Shown piece by piece: positions 8,973 through 22,036 of a stretch of 24,833 nucleotides of DNA. The position numbers and the translations under genes are program-made. The DNA lies in IMG/VR virus record IMGVR_UViG_3300030012_003100, positions 1 through 24,833 of that record. One strand, written 5' to 3'. This DNA is from a virus. The stretch's first letter is position 1. Each line of letters starts with the position of its first letter. The notes beneath the pieces were generated by a model, which worked only from the letters and a program-made list of their open reading frames with translations, was not told the DNA's origin and did no database searches.

Positions 8973-10114
8973 AAATTGGTGTAATAGGAGCAGGTAGATT
9001 AGGACTCTGCCTTGCTCTTTTGATAGAAGATGCAGGTTATGATGTTATTGCATCTGATATGAGACCTGATTATGTTAATCATCTTAATGAGAAAAAAGTT
9101 AAAACTAGTGAACCAGATGTTCAGGAGTATCTTAAGAAGGCAAATAAAATACAATTCACAACTGATAATATTAGAGTTATCACTGAGTGTGATATTATAT
9201 TCACTCTTGTTGCAACACCTTCATTAGAAGATGGTAGTTACGATGTTAGTTCAGTGTGGAAAGTTGTAAAAGATTTTAAAACTGCGTCTAAAAATACACA
9301 GGTATTTAATAAATCATTAGTAGTGGGGTGCACAACTAATCCAGGAGATTGTAATGAGATACAAGATTACCTAAGTGTAGATCCAGATACATTTGGGGTA
9401 AATGTATTTTACAATCCAGAATTTATTGCACAGGGAACTATCATAAAGGATTTACAGAATGCGGATACAGTTTTAATCTGTGGTGATAAATTTATTACAG
9501 AGCATGATCATGTAACAGTATTGAAAAAGATATACGAACACATACAATCTGGAAATTGCTCTGTTCATTATATGAGTACTAAAGCAGGTGAGATAGTCAA
9601 GATTGCTATCAATACTTTCTTAACAACTAAGATCAGTTATGCAAATACAATCGGACAGGTACTTGCTCTATCTGAATTAGATGATGAAATAGATTCTGTA
9701 TTAGAGGCGATAGGTAATGATAGTCGGATAGGAACTAAGTATCTCAAGTTTGGATTTGGTTTTGGTGGACCATGTTTTCCTAGAGATAATAGAGCGTTCG
9801 CAACATATGCAAATCGAGTAGGAGTAGAATTTAATATAGGTCAAACAACAGATGATTTTAATGAAGAACATGCAAAGTTTTTATTTTCATATTTTACTAA
9901 AAAGAATAAAAATAATTTACCATTTGTTTTTCCTTCTGTTGCGTATAAAAGAGGAACTGATATAATAGAAGAGAGTCAGCAATATCGTTTGTGTTTGGAT
10001 TTATTAGATGCAGGATATAAAGTTCATGTGTTGGATGATTCTACTAAACATATTTGCGATGATAGAATACTATATTCTAAACCAACTGGATATTTTTTTA
10101 ATGTAGATTTATGA
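8969..10114 (+). CDS. UDP-glucose/GDP-mannose dehydrogenase family
   Basis: A 381-residue protein of the usual family length. The Rossmann motif GVIGAGRLG is at 4-12, NPEFIAQG at 149-156, the EIVKIAINTF catalytic helix near 208-217, and the catalytic cysteine C269 in GFGGPCFPRD. The C-terminal third is the UDP-binding-type domain. The enzyme oxidises a nucleotide hexose twice to a uronic acid using two NAD+. UDP-glucose to UDP-glucuronate is the commoner reaction, but GDP-mannose to GDP-mannuronate fits the GDP-mannose theme of this island. The ATGA overlaps on both sides show tight coupling. Confidence 0.88.
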   Translation: MKIGVIGAGRLGLCLALLIEDAGYDVIASDMRPDYVNHLNEKKVKTSEPDVQEYLKKANKIQFTTDNIRVITECDIIFTLVATPSLEDGSYDVSSVWKVVKDFKTASKNTQVFNKSLVVGCTTNPGDCNEIQDYLSVDPDTFGVNVFYNPEFIAQGTIIKDLQNADTVLICGDKFITEHDHVTVLKKIYEHIQSGNCSVHYMSTKAGEIVKIAINTFLTTKISYANTIGQVLALSELDDEIDSVLEAIGNDSRIGTKYLKFGFGFGGPCFPRDNRAFATYANRVGVEFNIGQTTDDFNEEHAKFLFSYFTKKNKNNLPFVFPSVAYKRGTDIIEESQQYRLCLDLLDAGYKVHVLDDSTKHICDDRILYSKPTGYFFNVDL

Positions 10115-10971
10115 TTGGATACAACAGATTAGGATCAAATGGTCGCCTCGGAAATCAAATGTTTCAGTATGCATCACTGAGAGGAATCGCTGCTGCAAGA
10201 AACTATGATTGGAAAATACCACCAGAAAATTACCAACATAAAGATAACTATGGATTGTTTGAAACATTTGAAATGTCAAATGTAAAACCAGAAAATTTAG
10301 GATTTGTAAATGGTCAAAATGTTCAAGAAAATAATCATTGCTTTGCTCCTGAGTTTTTGACTGACTGTCCAGATGATTCTAATTTGGAGGGTTACTTTCA
10401 AACAGAAAAATATTTTACAAATATTGAAGATAAAATTCGTCAGGACTTTACATTTAAAAAAGGATACTTAGATCCATGTAAAGAATATATTGAGTCATTA
10501 GATAAACCACCAATATTTTTACATGTTAGACAATCTGATAATATTGGTAGAGAACAATATCATCCAATACTTCCAATATCGTTTTTTGATGAATGCTTAA
10601 AAGAGTTTGATGACGATACTCCATGTTTTGTTTTTACTGATGATTTAACATGGTGCAAATCACAAGAATATTTCAATCAAGATAGATTTTTATTTAATGA
10701 AAATGTAGAAAGATATTCATATAGTACTGTAGATGGTTTAGGAAAGATGCAAAACACTTTGTTACCACAAGTTGATTTATGCTTGATGTCTTTATGTTCT
10801 GGTGCTATAATAGCAAATAGTTCTTTCTCATGGTGGGGTGCTTGGTTGCAGAACAATCGTGGAAAGGTCATTGCCCCAGATCCTAAAAAGTGGTTTGGAT
10901 CATCAATGACACATTTAGATACATCAGACATTGTGCCTGATCGTTGGTTAATTAAGCAATGGAGTAAGTAA
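10111..10971 (+). CDS. GT11-family fucosyltransferase-like protein, copy 1
   Basis: A 286-residue protein. GRLGNQMFQYA at 11-21 and IANSSFSWWGAWL at 234-246 are hallmarks of GT11 (alpha-1,2-fucosyltransferases using GDP-fucose). The donor-binding HxRRxD motif is altered to HVRQSD at 138-143, losing the second Arg, so activity or donor choice may differ. It is one of three GT11 paralogues in the operon and is followed by an FkbM gene rather than a GT-A gene. The start overlaps the upstream stop (ATGA). Confidence 0.88.
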   Translation: MIGYNRLGSNGRLGNQMFQYASLRGIAAARNYDWKIPPENYQHKDNYGLFETFEMSNVKPENLGFVNGQNVQENNHCFAPEFLTDCPDDSNLEGYFQTEKYFTNIEDKIRQDFTFKKGYLDPCKEYIESLDKPPIFLHVRQSDNIGREQYHPILPISFFDECLKEFDDDTPCFVFTDDLTWCKSQEYFNQDRFLFNENVERYSYSTVDGLGKMQNTLLPQVDLCLMSLCSGAIIANSSFSWWGAWLQNNRGKVIAPDPKKWFGSSMTHLDTSDIVPDRWLIKQWSK

Positions 10972-11639
10972 TGCTTGACTACAAAACTTTAGATTACAAA
11001 AATGACGTTGGAGCAGGAGGTCTACAAGACATATATGCTTTAGTGGTTTTTGGTAAAGAATATAAAGGAACTTTTATTGATATCGGATGTCGTCATCCAG
11101 TGTATCATAATAATACATATCTTCTTGAAAAATATGGTTGGAAAGGTTATGCTGTTGATCTTGCCAATTACACTACAGAATGGGATACATATAGACCAAA
11201 TACTGTATATGAAAATAAAGATGCTTTTTCTGTAAATTATGAAGAACAAGTTAAAAATTTAAATGAGGAACCACTAATAGATTTTCTTTCAATTGATCTT
11301 GAAGTTCCTGGTGAAAGATTTAATATTCTTAAAAGAATTTTTGATACTGGATATGAATTTAAAGTGATTACAATTGAACATGATGCGTATTGCCATCCAG
11401 TAGAATCTGAAAAAATTCCTCAAAGAAAATTTCTAACAGAGAAAGGTTATGTTCTTGTTAAAAAATGTGAGGTGATTGAAGATTTTTGGATCAATCCTAA
11501 GTATATTAATGAGGAACAATATAAAATTTTAATACAACACAATACAGGTGATCCAGAAGTTCTTCCCTGGAAATTTTTAAAGAGTGTTGGGTGTGACTGG
11601 ACACATTTTTATGATAAAATTGATCTTAAAAACTTATGA
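10971..11639 (+). CDS. FkbM-like methyltransferase, second copy
   Basis: A 222-residue protein. GTFIDIGCRHPVYHNNT around 33-49 matches the FkbM/Methyltransf_21 start, followed by GWKGYAVDL and FLSIDLEVPGERFNIL, the family motif with Glu near the sugar-methylating active site. It is only distantly similar to the FkbM gene at 7581. The start overlaps the previous stop by one base (TAATG). It probably methylates a sugar of the same glycan. Confidence 0.78.
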   Translation: MLDYKTLDYKNDVGAGGLQDIYALVVFGKEYKGTFIDIGCRHPVYHNNTYLLEKYGWKGYAVDLANYTTEWDTYRPNTVYENKDAFSVNYEEQVKNLNEEPLIDFLSIDLEVPGERFNILKRIFDTGYEFKVITIEHDAYCHPVESEKIPQRKFLTEKGYVLVKKCEVIEDFWINPKYINEEQYKILIQHNTGDPEVLPWKFLKSVGCDWTHFYDKIDLKNL

Positions 11640-12523
11640 CTATATCATTTAATGGATTGGGTAATGAAGGTAGACTGGGCAATCAGTTGTTCCAGTATGC
11701 CTTTATTCGTGGTATGGCAGCAAAGTGCAATGTTGATTGGATGATTCCAGAATCAGATGCTCCCAGATATGATAATTATGGATTATTTGATTGCTTTGAA
11801 TTGTTTGGATGTAAGCGAACAGGTGAAAGTAATTTTCCTACAATAGAATGCCGAGACACTTTATTTCATCAAGAATTTTTTAAAGAGTGTGGAGATAATA
11901 CTAATTATTCTGGTATATATCAAACAGAAAAATACTTTGAGCATATTTCAGATGAAATAAGAAAAGATTATACTTTTAAAAAGGGATATTTAAATCCATG
12001 CAAAGAATTTATTGACAGTCTTGGTGGAAAAGATAATTGTATTTTTCTTCATGTTCGCAGGGGCAATCCTAACGTGACTGGACGTAGGGGAGAGAAATGG
12101 TCATATCAAATGTTACAAGAGTTTCATCCTTTATGCAAACCAGATTATTATCTAAAAGCACTGAAAGAGTTTCCAGAAGATAAAAATGTCATAGTTGTAT
12201 CGGATTTAATTGATTGGTGTAAACGTCAAGAGTGGTTGCAAGGAGATAGATTTCATTTTTCTGATTCATCTTATGAAACGTTTGGTGATGGTGCTAGTGT
12301 TCCTTATGTGGATTTATGTTTGATGTCACTTTGTAGTGGTGCTATCATCGCTAATTCATCTTTATCTTGGTGGGGTGCATGGTTACAAAATGATACGGGA
12401 AAAGTTATCGCACCAGAACCTTGGTTTGGTTCAGCAAATGCACATCTTGATACAAAGGACATGATTCCAGATAGATGGATAAAAATTCATAATGATCCTA
12501 CACCAATTCCACCAGTTTCATGA
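11636..12523 (+). CDS. GT11-family fucosyltransferase-like protein, copy 2
   Basis: A 295-residue protein. GRLGNQLFQYA at 12-22 and IANSSLSWWGAWL at 238-250 identify GT11. The donor motif reads HVRRGN (139-144), with Asn in place of the usual Asp. It is followed with a 4-base overlap by a GT-A gene, and this pair is repeated just downstream. The C-terminus ends in a proline-rich tail not seen in the other copies. Confidence 0.9.
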   Translation: MTISFNGLGNEGRLGNQLFQYAFIRGMAAKCNVDWMIPESDAPRYDNYGLFDCFELFGCKRTGESNFPTIECRDTLFHQEFFKECGDNTNYSGIYQTEKYFEHISDEIRKDYTFKKGYLNPCKEFIDSLGGKDNCIFLHVRRGNPNVTGRRGEKWSYQMLQEFHPLCKPDYYLKALKEFPEDKNVIVVSDLIDWCKRQEWLQGDRFHFSDSSYETFGDGASVPYVDLCLMSLCSGAIIANSSLSWWGAWLQNDTGKVIAPEPWFGSANAHLDTKDMIPDRWIKIHNDPTPIPPVS

Positions 12524-13326
12524 ATCTAACATTTTTAATTCCAGTAAAACTTGAATCTGAAGATAGAGTCAGAAATTTAATTACTGTCTTGACATATATT
12601 TTAACTAAATTTGATGCAAAAATTATAGTAAAAGAATGTGATATTGAAAATAAATTTTCAAAACTTATTATGCCATATCTAGTAAAAAGATTTGGTATCA
12701 TTAGTCATAGATTTGATTACATGTATGAAAAGCAAACCACTAATTATTTTCATAAAACTAAAATACTAAATGATCTGATTCAGAAATCTGATACTGAAGT
12801 GGTGTGTAACTATGATACTGATGTTTTACTTCCAATTACAAGTTATACTTTAGCATATGAAATGATAATGAGGGGTCAATGTGATGCAGTATACCCTTAT
12901 GGTTGTGGAATATATCAAAAAGCAGTTAAGTATGATAATAGTATATTTGATAATTTTATCAATTCAGATTTGGACGTAAAACAATTAGATACATATAGTA
13001 GTTCTACTTGCTCAACAATAGGATGGTGCCAATTTATTCGTAAAGAGAATTATATTCATTCTTATATGATGAATGAAAACTTTCATGCATGGGGCCCAGA
13101 AGATTGTGAACTATACTACAGACTAAATGTATTAGGAAATAGAGTCGTTAGAGTAAACGATTATGTTTACCACTTAGAACATGGTAGATCTACCGACTCA
13201 TGGTTCAGTAATCCTATGTGGCAGAGAAATACTGAACTATGGAATTGGATTAGATCTCAATCCAAAGAAGATCTTTTAAGATATTATGAATCACAAGATT
13301 ATGTCAAGAGGAGGACTAAATTATGA
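12520..13326 (+). CDS. GT-A glycosyltransferase (Glyco_transf_7C/GT2-like), copy A
   Basis: A 268-residue protein. It opens with FLIPVKLES, a typical GT-A first strand. YDTD at 98-101 provides the metal-binding DxD, and NENFHAWGPEDCELYYRL at 185-202 matches the galactosyltransferase C-terminal WGxED motif that supplies the catalytic base. No membrane segment. It is the second member of the duplicated GT11+GT-A pair, and its partner copy at 14180 has exactly the same length with the DxD at the same residues. The donor sugar is probably a UDP-hexose or hexosamine (inference). Confidence 0.82.
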   Translation: MNLTFLIPVKLESEDRVRNLITVLTYILTKFDAKIIVKECDIENKFSKLIMPYLVKRFGIISHRFDYMYEKQTTNYFHKTKILNDLIQKSDTEVVCNYDTDVLLPITSYTLAYEMIMRGQCDAVYPYGCGIYQKAVKYDNSIFDNFINSDLDVKQLDTYSSSTCSTIGWCQFIRKENYIHSYMMNENFHAWGPEDCELYYRLNVLGNRVVRVNDYVYHLEHGRSTDSWFSNPMWQRNTELWNWIRSQSKEDLLRYYESQDYVKRRTKL

Positions 13327-14180
13327 TTGGATTTAACAATCTCGGTAACATGGGTAGATTGGGAAACCAAATGTTTGAATATGCAGCATTACGAGGTATT
13401 GCAGCAAATAAAGGATATGATTGGTGTATTCCACCATTCACTAATAAAGGAATAGAAAATTATAGTTTAGATCGAGCGTTTACTTTACCCTCAGTAACAT
13501 CGACTAATTTAAGATTATTAGATAATGGATATGCACCAGTTGTAGGAGAAAGACAGTTTCATTTTGATGAAGAATTATTTAACCTCTGTCCCAATGAAAT
13601 TAGTTTGAATGGTTTCTTTCAATCTGAAAAATATTTTAAGAATATTGAAAATGAAATAAGAAGAGAATTTACATTTCACAGTGATATAATAGAACCATGT
13701 AGAGAAATGATAAACTCATTAGACCCTGCACCTATATTTTTACATGTCCGTAGAGGAGATCCTAATCTAGTAGATCCTCGTGGTTTTAAGTGGTCATATA
13801 CAGAGTGTTCCGATCAACACCCCCCACAATCTCTTGAGTACTACGAAAAGGCATTGCAAGCATTTCCAGAAGATACACCTGTTGTCGTCTGCTCAGACTC
13901 TCCTGAGTGGGTACAGGAACAAGAGATATTTAAACCTGATAGATTTGCTATCTCAATACCAGAAGATAAGTATGATGACGGATCTTATGAACCGTTTATT
14001 GATTTATGTTTAATGTCGCTATGTTCTGGTGCTATAATTGCGAACAGTTCGATGAGTTGGTGGGGTGCATGGTTGCAAAATGGAAGAGGCAAGGTAATCG
14101 CACCTAAGACATGGTTTGGTCCTGCGTATCCAAATAATGATACTAAAGATTTATATTTAAATGACTGGATATTAATCTAA
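13323..14180 (+). CDS. GT11-family fucosyltransferase-like protein, copy 3
   Basis: A 285-residue protein. GRLGNQMFEYA is at 11-21, the intact donor motif HVRRGDP at 141-147, and IANSSMSWWGAWL near the C-terminus. It is the only one of the three copies with canonical HxRRxD, so it is the best candidate for an active alpha-1,2-transferase using GDP-fucose or GDP-L-galactose. It overlaps the upstream GT-A gene by ATGA and its stop overlaps the next start (TAATG). Confidence 0.9.
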   Translation: MIGFNNLGNMGRLGNQMFEYAALRGIAANKGYDWCIPPFTNKGIENYSLDRAFTLPSVTSTNLRLLDNGYAPVVGERQFHFDEELFNLCPNEISLNGFFQSEKYFKNIENEIRREFTFHSDIIEPCREMINSLDPAPIFLHVRRGDPNLVDPRGFKWSYTECSDQHPPQSLEYYEKALQAFPEDTPVVVCSDSPEWVQEQEIFKPDRFAISIPEDKYDDGSYEPFIDLCLMSLCSGAIIANSSMSWWGAWLQNGRGKVIAPKTWFGPAYPNNDTKDLYLNDWILI

Positions 14181-18704: not shown

Positions 18705-18738
18705 TTGACAACCTCATGGGATCATGTTATAATAAATA
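18705..18738 (+). promoter_or_regulatory. overlapping consensus sigma70 and T4-type late promoters
   Basis: TTGACA (18705-18710), a 17-bp spacer and TATAAT (18728-18733), with TG at 18725-18726 making an extended -10. The same bases run into AATAAATA (18731-18738), the NATAAATA late motif. Both polymerase forms could start transcription within a few bases of each other. Confidence 0.75.
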
Positions 18739-18740
18739 TC

Positions 18741-18840
18741 ATTACATAGAACGAAGGCCCGAAAGATCGTCCCCTGCGTAGAATGTAAAAATCTTTATGT
18801 CGAAAGATTTTCCATCCGCAGGATTTTTTGTCTGCGAGAT
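18741..18840 (+). promoter_or_regulatory. leader with mutually exclusive hairpins (attenuator or riboswitch-like)
   Basis: A 5' domain closes with TTACAT/ATGTAA (18742-18747/18783-18788), a symmetric AGA/AGA internal loop and ACG/CGT. CCTGCG (18773-18778) can pair with CGCAGG (18817-18822), just before ATTTTTT, giving a terminator with AAAATCTTT/AAAGATTTT (about 18788-18810) nested inside. The same 3' strand can instead pair with CTGCG(A)GAT (18832-18840). The forms compete, as in attenuators. No ligand can be assigned. Confidence 0.55.
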
Positions 18841-18852
18841 ACTTATAAAAAA

Positions 18853-19227
18853 ATGTTTACTAAATCAACAATCGCTGCAACAGCAGCATCTCCATTCCTA
18901 TTCGCTGGTGCAGCCTTTGCTGGTCCATACGTGAATGTCGAAGCAAATGGTTCATACCCTGATGGCACATACACATCTGGAAATATCGAACTCCAAGTTG
19001 GATACGAGGGAACAACTCCTAACGGAATCAACTGGTACGCATCTGTAGGTCCTACAGTTCAGCACACAGAAACTGCTGATGAGTTCGGTGATGTCGAAAT
19101 CGCTGGATACTTAGGTGGTGGTAAGTCACTAACAGAGAAAACATCTGTATACGGTGAAATCTATGGTGCTTCAAACAATGACGACGTTGATTGGGCAGGA
19201 AAAGCAGGTCTTAGATATGCTTTCTAA
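18853..19227 (+). CDS. secreted outer-membrane beta-barrel-like protein
   Basis: A 124-residue protein. Residues 1-23 look like a signal peptide with an alanine-rich core and an AFA cleavage site (mature start GPYV). The mature part has alternating hydrophobic/polar strands (YVNVEANGSY, NIELQVGYEG, INWYASVGPTVQ, KTSVYGEIYGAS) and ends GKAGLRYAF. A C-terminal strand ending in Phe is the BAM recognition signature of Gram-negative outer-membrane proteins. At about 100 mature residues it would be a small barrel of about eight strands. A role in the host envelope, such as receptor masking or superinfection exclusion, is inferred. It has the strongest promoter of the window, an attenuator-like leader and its own terminator. 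Confidence 0.75.
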   Translation: MFTKSTIAATAASPFLFAGAAFAGPYVNVEANGSYPDGTYTSGNIELQVGYEGTTPNGINWYASVGPTVQHTETADEFGDVEIAGYLGGGKSLTEKTSVYGEIYGASNNDDVDWAGKAGLRYAF

Positions 19228-19254
19228 CTAAATATCTTTAGTTCGAGATGGATC

Positions 19255-19283
19255 AGACCTCTGCATTGCAGGGGTCTTTTTTT
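19255..19283 (+). terminator. intrinsic terminator after the barrel gene
   Basis: AGACCTCTGC (19255-19264) / GCAGGGGTCT (19268-19277) form a 10-bp stem with one G-T pair and an ATT loop, followed by six more T. Confidence 0.88.
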
Positions 19284-19293
19284 ATGCTATAAT
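19266..19293 (+). promoter_or_regulatory. sigma70-like promoter nested in the terminator
   Basis: TATAAT (19288-19293) with extended TGC is 16 bp after TTGCAG (19266-19271), which is part of the terminator loop and stem. The predicted start near 19300 coincides with the next ATG, so the transcript may be leaderless. Confidence 0.55.
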
Positions 19294-21844: not shown

Positions 21845-21874
21845 ATATAATATGTACTGGAGTTGAAAAGAATC

Positions 21875-22036
21875 ATGTCCCATTACGAACTAGGTTGGCA
21901 CGACCAAAACAACGAACACCATGAAATTGGTGAATATGCCGAAGATGCTTTCGAGGCAGCAAGAAATGCAAGAGAGGATGTACCGTATCTACAGGCACAT
22001 CCTTTTTCTCTGGATTCAATTAAGGAGATTAAATGA
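21875..22036 (+). CDS. hypothetical 53-residue protein
   Basis: An acidic, His-containing small soluble protein (GWHDQNNEHHEIGEYAEDAF) with a helical middle. First gene behind the dyad promoter; GGAG lies 16 bases upstream. Its stop overlaps the next start (ATGA). No family recognised. Confidence 0.6.
   Translation: MSHYELGWHDQNNEHHEIGEYAEDAFEAARNAREDVPYLQAHPFSLDSIKEIK

Follow-up and report, generated by a model that had tools for sequence, protein, structure and literature searches.

A candidate transcription attenuator in the leader of a cyanophage outer membrane protein gene, and the recurrence of its 5' hairpin at other phage genes

The outer membrane protein gene and its leader

The window analysed here, the whole stretch of 24,833 nucleotides of the viral record IMGVR_UViG_3300030012_003100, carries a gene for a cyanophage outer membrane-type protein (OMP; Table 1). 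Its product matches PF24653 (cyanophage outer membrane protein like beta barrel; Phage_OMP) with an E-value of 1.6e-35 as well as PHROG 417, and in annotated phages the gene goes under the names DUF680, T4-GC 241 or PhCOG173. Relatives are encoded in 384 phage records. During evolution of S-TIM4 on Synechococcus WH8102 the gene accumulated loss-of-function mutations (PMC6224464). The 3' end of the gene is conserved as GTTCGAGATGGATCA and is followed by a GC-rich terminator (window 19233-19284; 2029-2075 in the P-SSM2 locus L083). The same P-SSM2 locus holds a second Phage_OMP paralogue (PSSM2_247, 2256-2612), which lies directly before pstS and has no leader. Elsewhere in the window, a manA RNA (RF01745, 180.7 bits) at 1342-1527 overlaps the start of a transaldolase-like open reading frame, and three similar fucosyltransferase-like frames are interleaved with glycosyltransferase-like ones at 10111-14180.

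The leader is the interval between the sigma-70-type promoter and the ATG of the OMP gene. A promoter site with at least 9 of the 12 consensus letters was found in 126 of 153 leaders of the form that we call A (see below), compared with 15% in shuffles, and the T4-late-like NATAAATA in 129 of the 153, compared with 4% in shuffles.

The initial annotation of this DNA had pointed to CGCAGG (18817-18822) as a segment with two alternative partners, CCTGCG upstream (18773-18778), which would give a hairpin before ATTTTTT (18823-18829), and CTGCGAGAT downstream (18832-18840). The letters are found at these positions and both pairings form in folding, so that the observation is confirmed, while the interpretation attached to it is supported in part, as described in the following. 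The AGA/AGA internal loop of the 5' domain does occur in the minimum-energy fold but is not conserved in relatives, where the outer stem P1 is weak too (arm-swap test, z -1.9); both were rejected as conserved parts of the leader.

Taken alone, the window leader is not folded beyond chance in either its full or its terminated form (z -1.58 and -1.50; 15 and 19 of 200 shuffles were as stable). The finding therefore depends wholly on comparison: over a diverse set of 95 homologous leaders, the structures exceed chance by a wide margin. No family of Rfam 15, T-box and known riboswitches included, matches the leader at gathering or permissive thresholds, in agreement with the annotation, which had recognised no known riboswitch class. 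Leader RNAs described from cyanophages are manA, wcaG and PhotoRC-II (PMC2864571, PMC9964418). Like the OMP leader, manA (RF01745) and wcaG (RF01761) are candidate cis-regulatory RNAs of T4-like cyanophages, but neither matches it. The OMP leader is not described in the cyanophage RNA and DUF680 literature that we covered, which included few subscription papers. It thus appears to be an uncatalogued candidate regulatory RNA before a gene of hundreds of cyanophages, linked to psbA by a shared hairpin. Few viruses of the ocean are as common as the T4-like cyanophages.

Table 1. Positions in the window of the features discussed
Feature	Position	Strand	Basis
Sigma-70-type promoter, TTGACA-17-TATAAT, upstream of the leader	18705-18733	+	12/12 consensus
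T4-late-promoter-like AATAAATA, overlapping the sigma-70 promoter	18731-18738	+	consensus only
P1, outer stem of the 5' domain: TTACAT 18742-18747 / ATGTAA 18783-18788, AGA/AGA loop	18742-18788	+	fold
S1 hairpin: ACG/CGT; AGG 18755-18757 / CCT 18773-18775; CGA 18760-18762 / TCG 18767-18769	18747-18781	+	R2 match (training copy); covariation in form A and across gene contexts
T, predicted terminator stem: CCTGCG 18773-18778 / CGCAGG 18817-18822, enclosing H2	18773-18822	+	comparison
H2 hairpin, GUCG in loop (loop 18797-18802)	18788-18811	+	covariation
H3 hairpin: CGCAGG 18817-18822 / TCTGCG 18831-18836, ATC/GAT extension, U-run in loop	18814-18840	+	
U-run after T; predicted 3' end of short RNA	18823-18829	+	tied to S1 leaders
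OMP gene, cyanophage outer-membrane-type beta-barrel protein (DUF680, T4-GC 241)	18853-19227	+	Pfam PF24653, PHROG 417, homologues
Further copy of S1, around the start codon ATG 21875	21851-21887	+	R2 E 1.7e-6 (training copy); conserved in relatives
Small gene T4-GC 224 (PHROG 8866, no assigned function), second gene with S1	21875-22036	+	

Two forms of the leader and their conserved stems

The leader of the OMP gene recurs in cyanomyoviruses in two forms. Form A consists of the 5' hairpin S1, the hairpin H2, the predicted terminator stem T with its U-run, and the hairpin H3, in this order. Form B keeps H2 and H3, is without S1 and terminator, and usually has a Shine-Dalgarno sequence. Form A was found in 29 annotated records, all of them Prochlorococcus phages or single-cell marine virus records whose host is unstated. 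About 282 cyanophage records carry form B; nearly all are Synechococcus phages, and P-RSM4, a phage from Prochlorococcus MIT9303, is also among them. Between H3 and the ATG, a Shine-Dalgarno sequence is present in none of 171 form A leaders versus 97 of 110 form B leaders, while long open reading frames have one in about 30% of cases in both sets. This is a concrete, host-linked difference in the control of the same gene between related phages. Some form B leaders (e.g. L023, L034, L088) have a longer 5' extension with TTCCGAATGNCTCAATTACTC and a hairpin of its own. In genome contigs the pattern of the form A tail gave no match, and the S1 pattern gave two, one on the phage contig of a Prochlorococcus single cell and one in a full OMP-type leader in a metagenome-assembled genome.

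Of the 255 distinct leaders found, 254 lie upstream of the OMP gene, although two of the searches relied on DNA patterns that do not contain it. That both forms are tied to one gene, and that form B has no terminator, argues against the idea that the terminated RNA of 88-90 nt is a trans-acting small RNA of the phage, with readthrough being incidental. We regard this as very unlikely, even though such an RNA would have its own promoter and terminator as well as the conserved GUCG loop and S1.

Across 95 form A leaders, the pairs of S1, H2 and H3 are formed in 90.2% of cells, versus 82.5% in shuffled and 26-48% in slid controls, and double changes occur in 201 cells versus 75 in controls, kinship among the leader sequences being retained in these counts as in the arm-swap statistics below. 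H2 shows compensatory changes in seven of its eight pairs. T is paired in 90% of cells (95 leaders) with zero compensatory double changes, as expected for a stem of which each arm also serves a second stem. When arms were swapped between form A leaders, the native arms gave the better duplex for H2 (z -23), H3 (z -7.7), T (z -4.3) and S1 (z -3.7); in form B the same held for H2 (z -22) and H3 (z -11.7). H3 has compensatory changes across both forms, and in form B its arms occur as UGCGG/CCGCA, UGCUG/CAGCA, CGCAG/CUGCG and UGCAG/CUGCA. Comparison of homologous leaders, which the annotation had proposed as a check, hence shows the four stems, and with them the competing pairings, to be conserved. 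A loop-loop pairing of GUCG with S1 or CAUC was considered by eye and rejected, as the partner is not conserved.

Order of folding and the case for attenuation

S1, T and H3 are mutually exclusive and form in that order as the RNA lengthens. With the window RNA folded at growing length, S1 and H2 are present up to 18821, T at ends of 18826-18831 and S1, H2 and H3 from 18836; the hairpin that the annotation had placed before ATTTTTT is thus predicted to form at the U-run. We extended this stepwise equilibrium folding to 94 leaders. In all of them S1 is predicted before the arm. At the U-run, T is predicted in 90%, a share that fell to 35% once the 5' part had been shuffled, and the complete sequence of S1, T and S1 with H3 is predicted in 58 (62%). 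The 3' strand of S1 is the 5' strand of T, so that the upstream structure excludes the terminator, and the attenuator-like architecture described in the annotation, a compact 5' domain sharing a strand with the terminator, is upheld in this respect. T stands directly before the U-run, as in an intrinsic terminator; its stem is short and encloses H2, and a scan with a simple terminator consensus, allowing loops of 3-8 only, did not list it.

The U-run goes with S1. Of the 171 leaders that have S1, 163 carry a U-run directly behind the arm; no leader lacking S1 does so. Four leaders flagged as class B have a U-run in mid-loop and not directly after the arm, and three flagged as lacking S1 carry a variant of it, with CAGA for CGA. 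L036 and L038 have the CGCAGG arm without S1 and without the U-run, L071 has lost both, and L347 and L358 are among the few leaders with S1 and T in which the U-run is lost. Mapped on the protein tree, S1 switches state some seven times, three of these switches falling on firm branches, and the U-run changes with S1 or stays, never in the opposite direction. With three firm independent swaps only, the sign test of this link (p 0.25) cannot reach significance.

According to the annotation, the downstream partner would undo the terminator. This does not hold for H3, because its 3' arm is transcribed after the U-run; H3 can therefore neither be the antiterminator nor decide termination. As H3 is also found in the terminator-less form B, its main role has to be sought elsewhere; what remains for it is to lock the readthrough state or to influence translation. 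The folding model leaves S1 as the candidate antiterminator.

The position of H2 and H3, 16-20 nt upstream of the AUG, raises the question whether translation or mRNA stability is the main target of the leader, through these two hairpins, with little or no termination and with the U-run of form A being merely the loop of H3. Beyond these two, the forms A and B share no part, and covariation is strongest in H2. However, a U-run is found only where S1 and the T 5' strand are present, the H3 arm is the same in L036 and L038, which have neither, and T is predicted at the U-run in nine tenths of the leaders. Hence, we consider this explanation rather unlikely.

The exclusive folding of S1, T and H3 in order, together with the occurrence of the U-run with S1, makes a transcription attenuator the best reading. 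We think it probable, if by no wide measure, that the leader is a cis-acting attenuator of the OMP gene, with S1 as the element through which a small phage regulon senses or binds its factor. RNA polymerase would start near 18741, and S1 would fold first. The emerging CGCAGG would then invade S1 and form T before the U-run, and transcription in the cell would stop near 18829, which we infer to be the default-off state. If S1 were held by a bound factor, a protein or a small molecule, T would be blocked and the polymerase would read through. H3 would subsequently form, leaving CCTGCG in S1 and locking T off, and the gene would be translated.

In fluoride and ZTP riboswitches one strand is common to the 5' domain and the terminator, so that stabilising the domain gives readthrough. 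The OMP leader resembles them in that its predicted terminator invades the 5' domain; it differs in its sequence and in a third hairpin that forms after the U-run. A chain of mutually exclusive hairpins is also seen in trp/his-type attenuators, but in the leader the U-run precedes segment 4 and the terminator would be the central pairing, 2:3. A trp-type mechanism with a leader peptide is in our opinion highly improbable: short AUG-started frames exist in some leaders, but their position and length are not conserved, and a contained frame of at least six codons was found in only 64 of 153 leaders. By this modelling, the OMP leader would work like an attenuator whose terminator invades the 5' domain, and it matched none of the named RNA families against which it was tested.

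S1 at other phage genes

R1, a model built for the leader as a whole, picked up a second site in the window, though weakly (E 0.016), and further sites in relatives. A second model (R2) was built for S1 from 42 copies, including those of the window and of the loci L083, L085 and L097. On inspection, the R1 sites revealed S1-like hairpins over the start of the small gene T4-GC 224, which is the second copy in the window, and in a psbA leader just 5' of PhotoRC-II, so that the 5' hairpin is portable, a feature which the annotation had missed. In 5.3 Mb of sequence, a strict S1 pattern had 199 hits at OMP leaders, 23 at psbA and 217 at T4-GC 224, the last count being inflated as one search pattern included S1 and GGG starts were counted twice, and little else; it had no match in 1.18 Mb of shuffled sequence. 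Among the start regions of T4-GC 224 found without that pattern, 21 of 25 have the hairpin.

At T4-GC 224 the pairs of S1 follow the coding sequence. Codon 2 pairs with the 5' strand as CCC with GGG in 115 cases and as UCC with GGA in six, also in the unbiased subset, and the non-coding strand of S1 thus follows the coding strand. The inner pair is C-G at OMP and psbA and U-A at T4-GC 224, where its A belongs to the AUG, so that CGA/UCG becomes UGA/UCA where an AUG is required. Outer-stem pairs of the types CG, GC, AU and UA occur across the gene contexts. Although conserved and portable, S1 is very small, with a short stem, a conserved A-rich loop and an internal loop of variable sequence. 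In P-SSM2, petE follows T4-GC 224.

S1 stands directly 5' of PhotoRC-II in 11 of 107 PhotoRC-II copies, the other 96 being without it. Examples are L340 (653-685, minus strand) and P-HM2 (171605-171640), and a further hairpin lies upstream. PhotoRC-II (RF01717) is, like the OMP leader, a leader RNA of cyanophages, found at psbA, and in some Prochlorococcus phages S1 overlaps its first bases. S1 lies outside the Rfam model, however, and RF01717 matches the psbA locus L340 but not the OMP leader. As no terminator adjoins S1 in the psbA leaders, and as S1 overlaps the AUG at T4-GC 224, attenuation cannot be its only use. The recurrence of S1 at other genes including psbA suggests a phage-wide RNA switch.

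Genome-wide scans with R2 agree with this distribution. P-HM1, P-HM2 and MED4-213 have three sites, at OMP, T4-GC 224 and psbA, the P-HM2 loci other than psbA being the leader of PHM2_229 (from 178216) and PHM2_219 (175314-175348); P-TIM68, P-SSM2, P-SSM3, P-SSM7, AG-345-F15 and AG-345-L05 have two, P-SSM4 and P-RSM6 one, and P-RSM4 a single weaker one at T4-GC 224. Most Prochlorococcus phage genomes scanned thus have two or three copies, confined to these three genes. R2 found none in S-PRM1, MbCM1, Sf-FS3 and S-RIM44, a match in syn9 lies within a coding gene and is put down to chance, and the five Synechococcus phages scanned have no credible S1. RNA data for P-HM2 exist as GSE79359 (PMC5082946). 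Among 300 genomes drawn from the family to which the single-cell Prochlorococcus genome G001 belongs, S1 was found only on the phage contig of G001, apart from two weak matches (E 2e-4 and 6e-4) that look like chance on inspection.

These data bear on what may read S1. It is quite conceivable, as a tentative refinement, that S1 is a hairpin for an RNA-binding protein, which would repress T4-GC 224 by covering the AUG and favour readthrough at OMP without any small ligand. The AUG lies within the hairpin in about 120 T4-GC 224 leaders, the stem is short and the A-rich loop conserved, and the lack of S1 from about 300 host-family genomes points to a phage system. Hairpins over a start codon are known as translational operators of the MS2 coat protein and T4 gp43, although S1 differs from these in sequence and is also used at a predicted terminator. 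Against the proposal, the analysis brought up no candidate protein, which might come from phage or host; the product of T4-GC 224 contains no recognised domain and many acidic residues.

Alternatively, S1 might serve as aptamer in a small riboswitch whose platform varies, a terminator at OMP and the start codon at T4-GC 224. Combining one domain with several platforms is typical of riboswitches, and manA, wcaG and glutamine RNAs are already present in cyanophages (PMC2864571, PMC9964418). But S1 is very small and simple, its internal loop varies in sequence, and there is no Rfam match; we consider this version unlikely. The protein and the metabolite version both refine the attenuator reading and are not exclusive of it. 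With due caution, we propose that S1 may mark an RNA-level regulon of T4-like Prochlorococcus phages. A single trans-acting factor or ligand might bind this hairpin in the OMP, T4-GC 224 and psbA leaders, with opposite results that depend on the platform: antitermination in one leader and a block of the start codon in another, since the same binding at T4-GC 224 would prevent translation, while Synechococcus phages would control the OMP gene through the Shine-Dalgarno version without S1. S1 could serve as a bait to find the factor that reads the hairpin.

At two further loci (L325, position 11200, and L431, minus strand), S1 lies a few bases before a membrane-type open reading frame of 37 codons, the start of which resembles the signal peptide of PetE.
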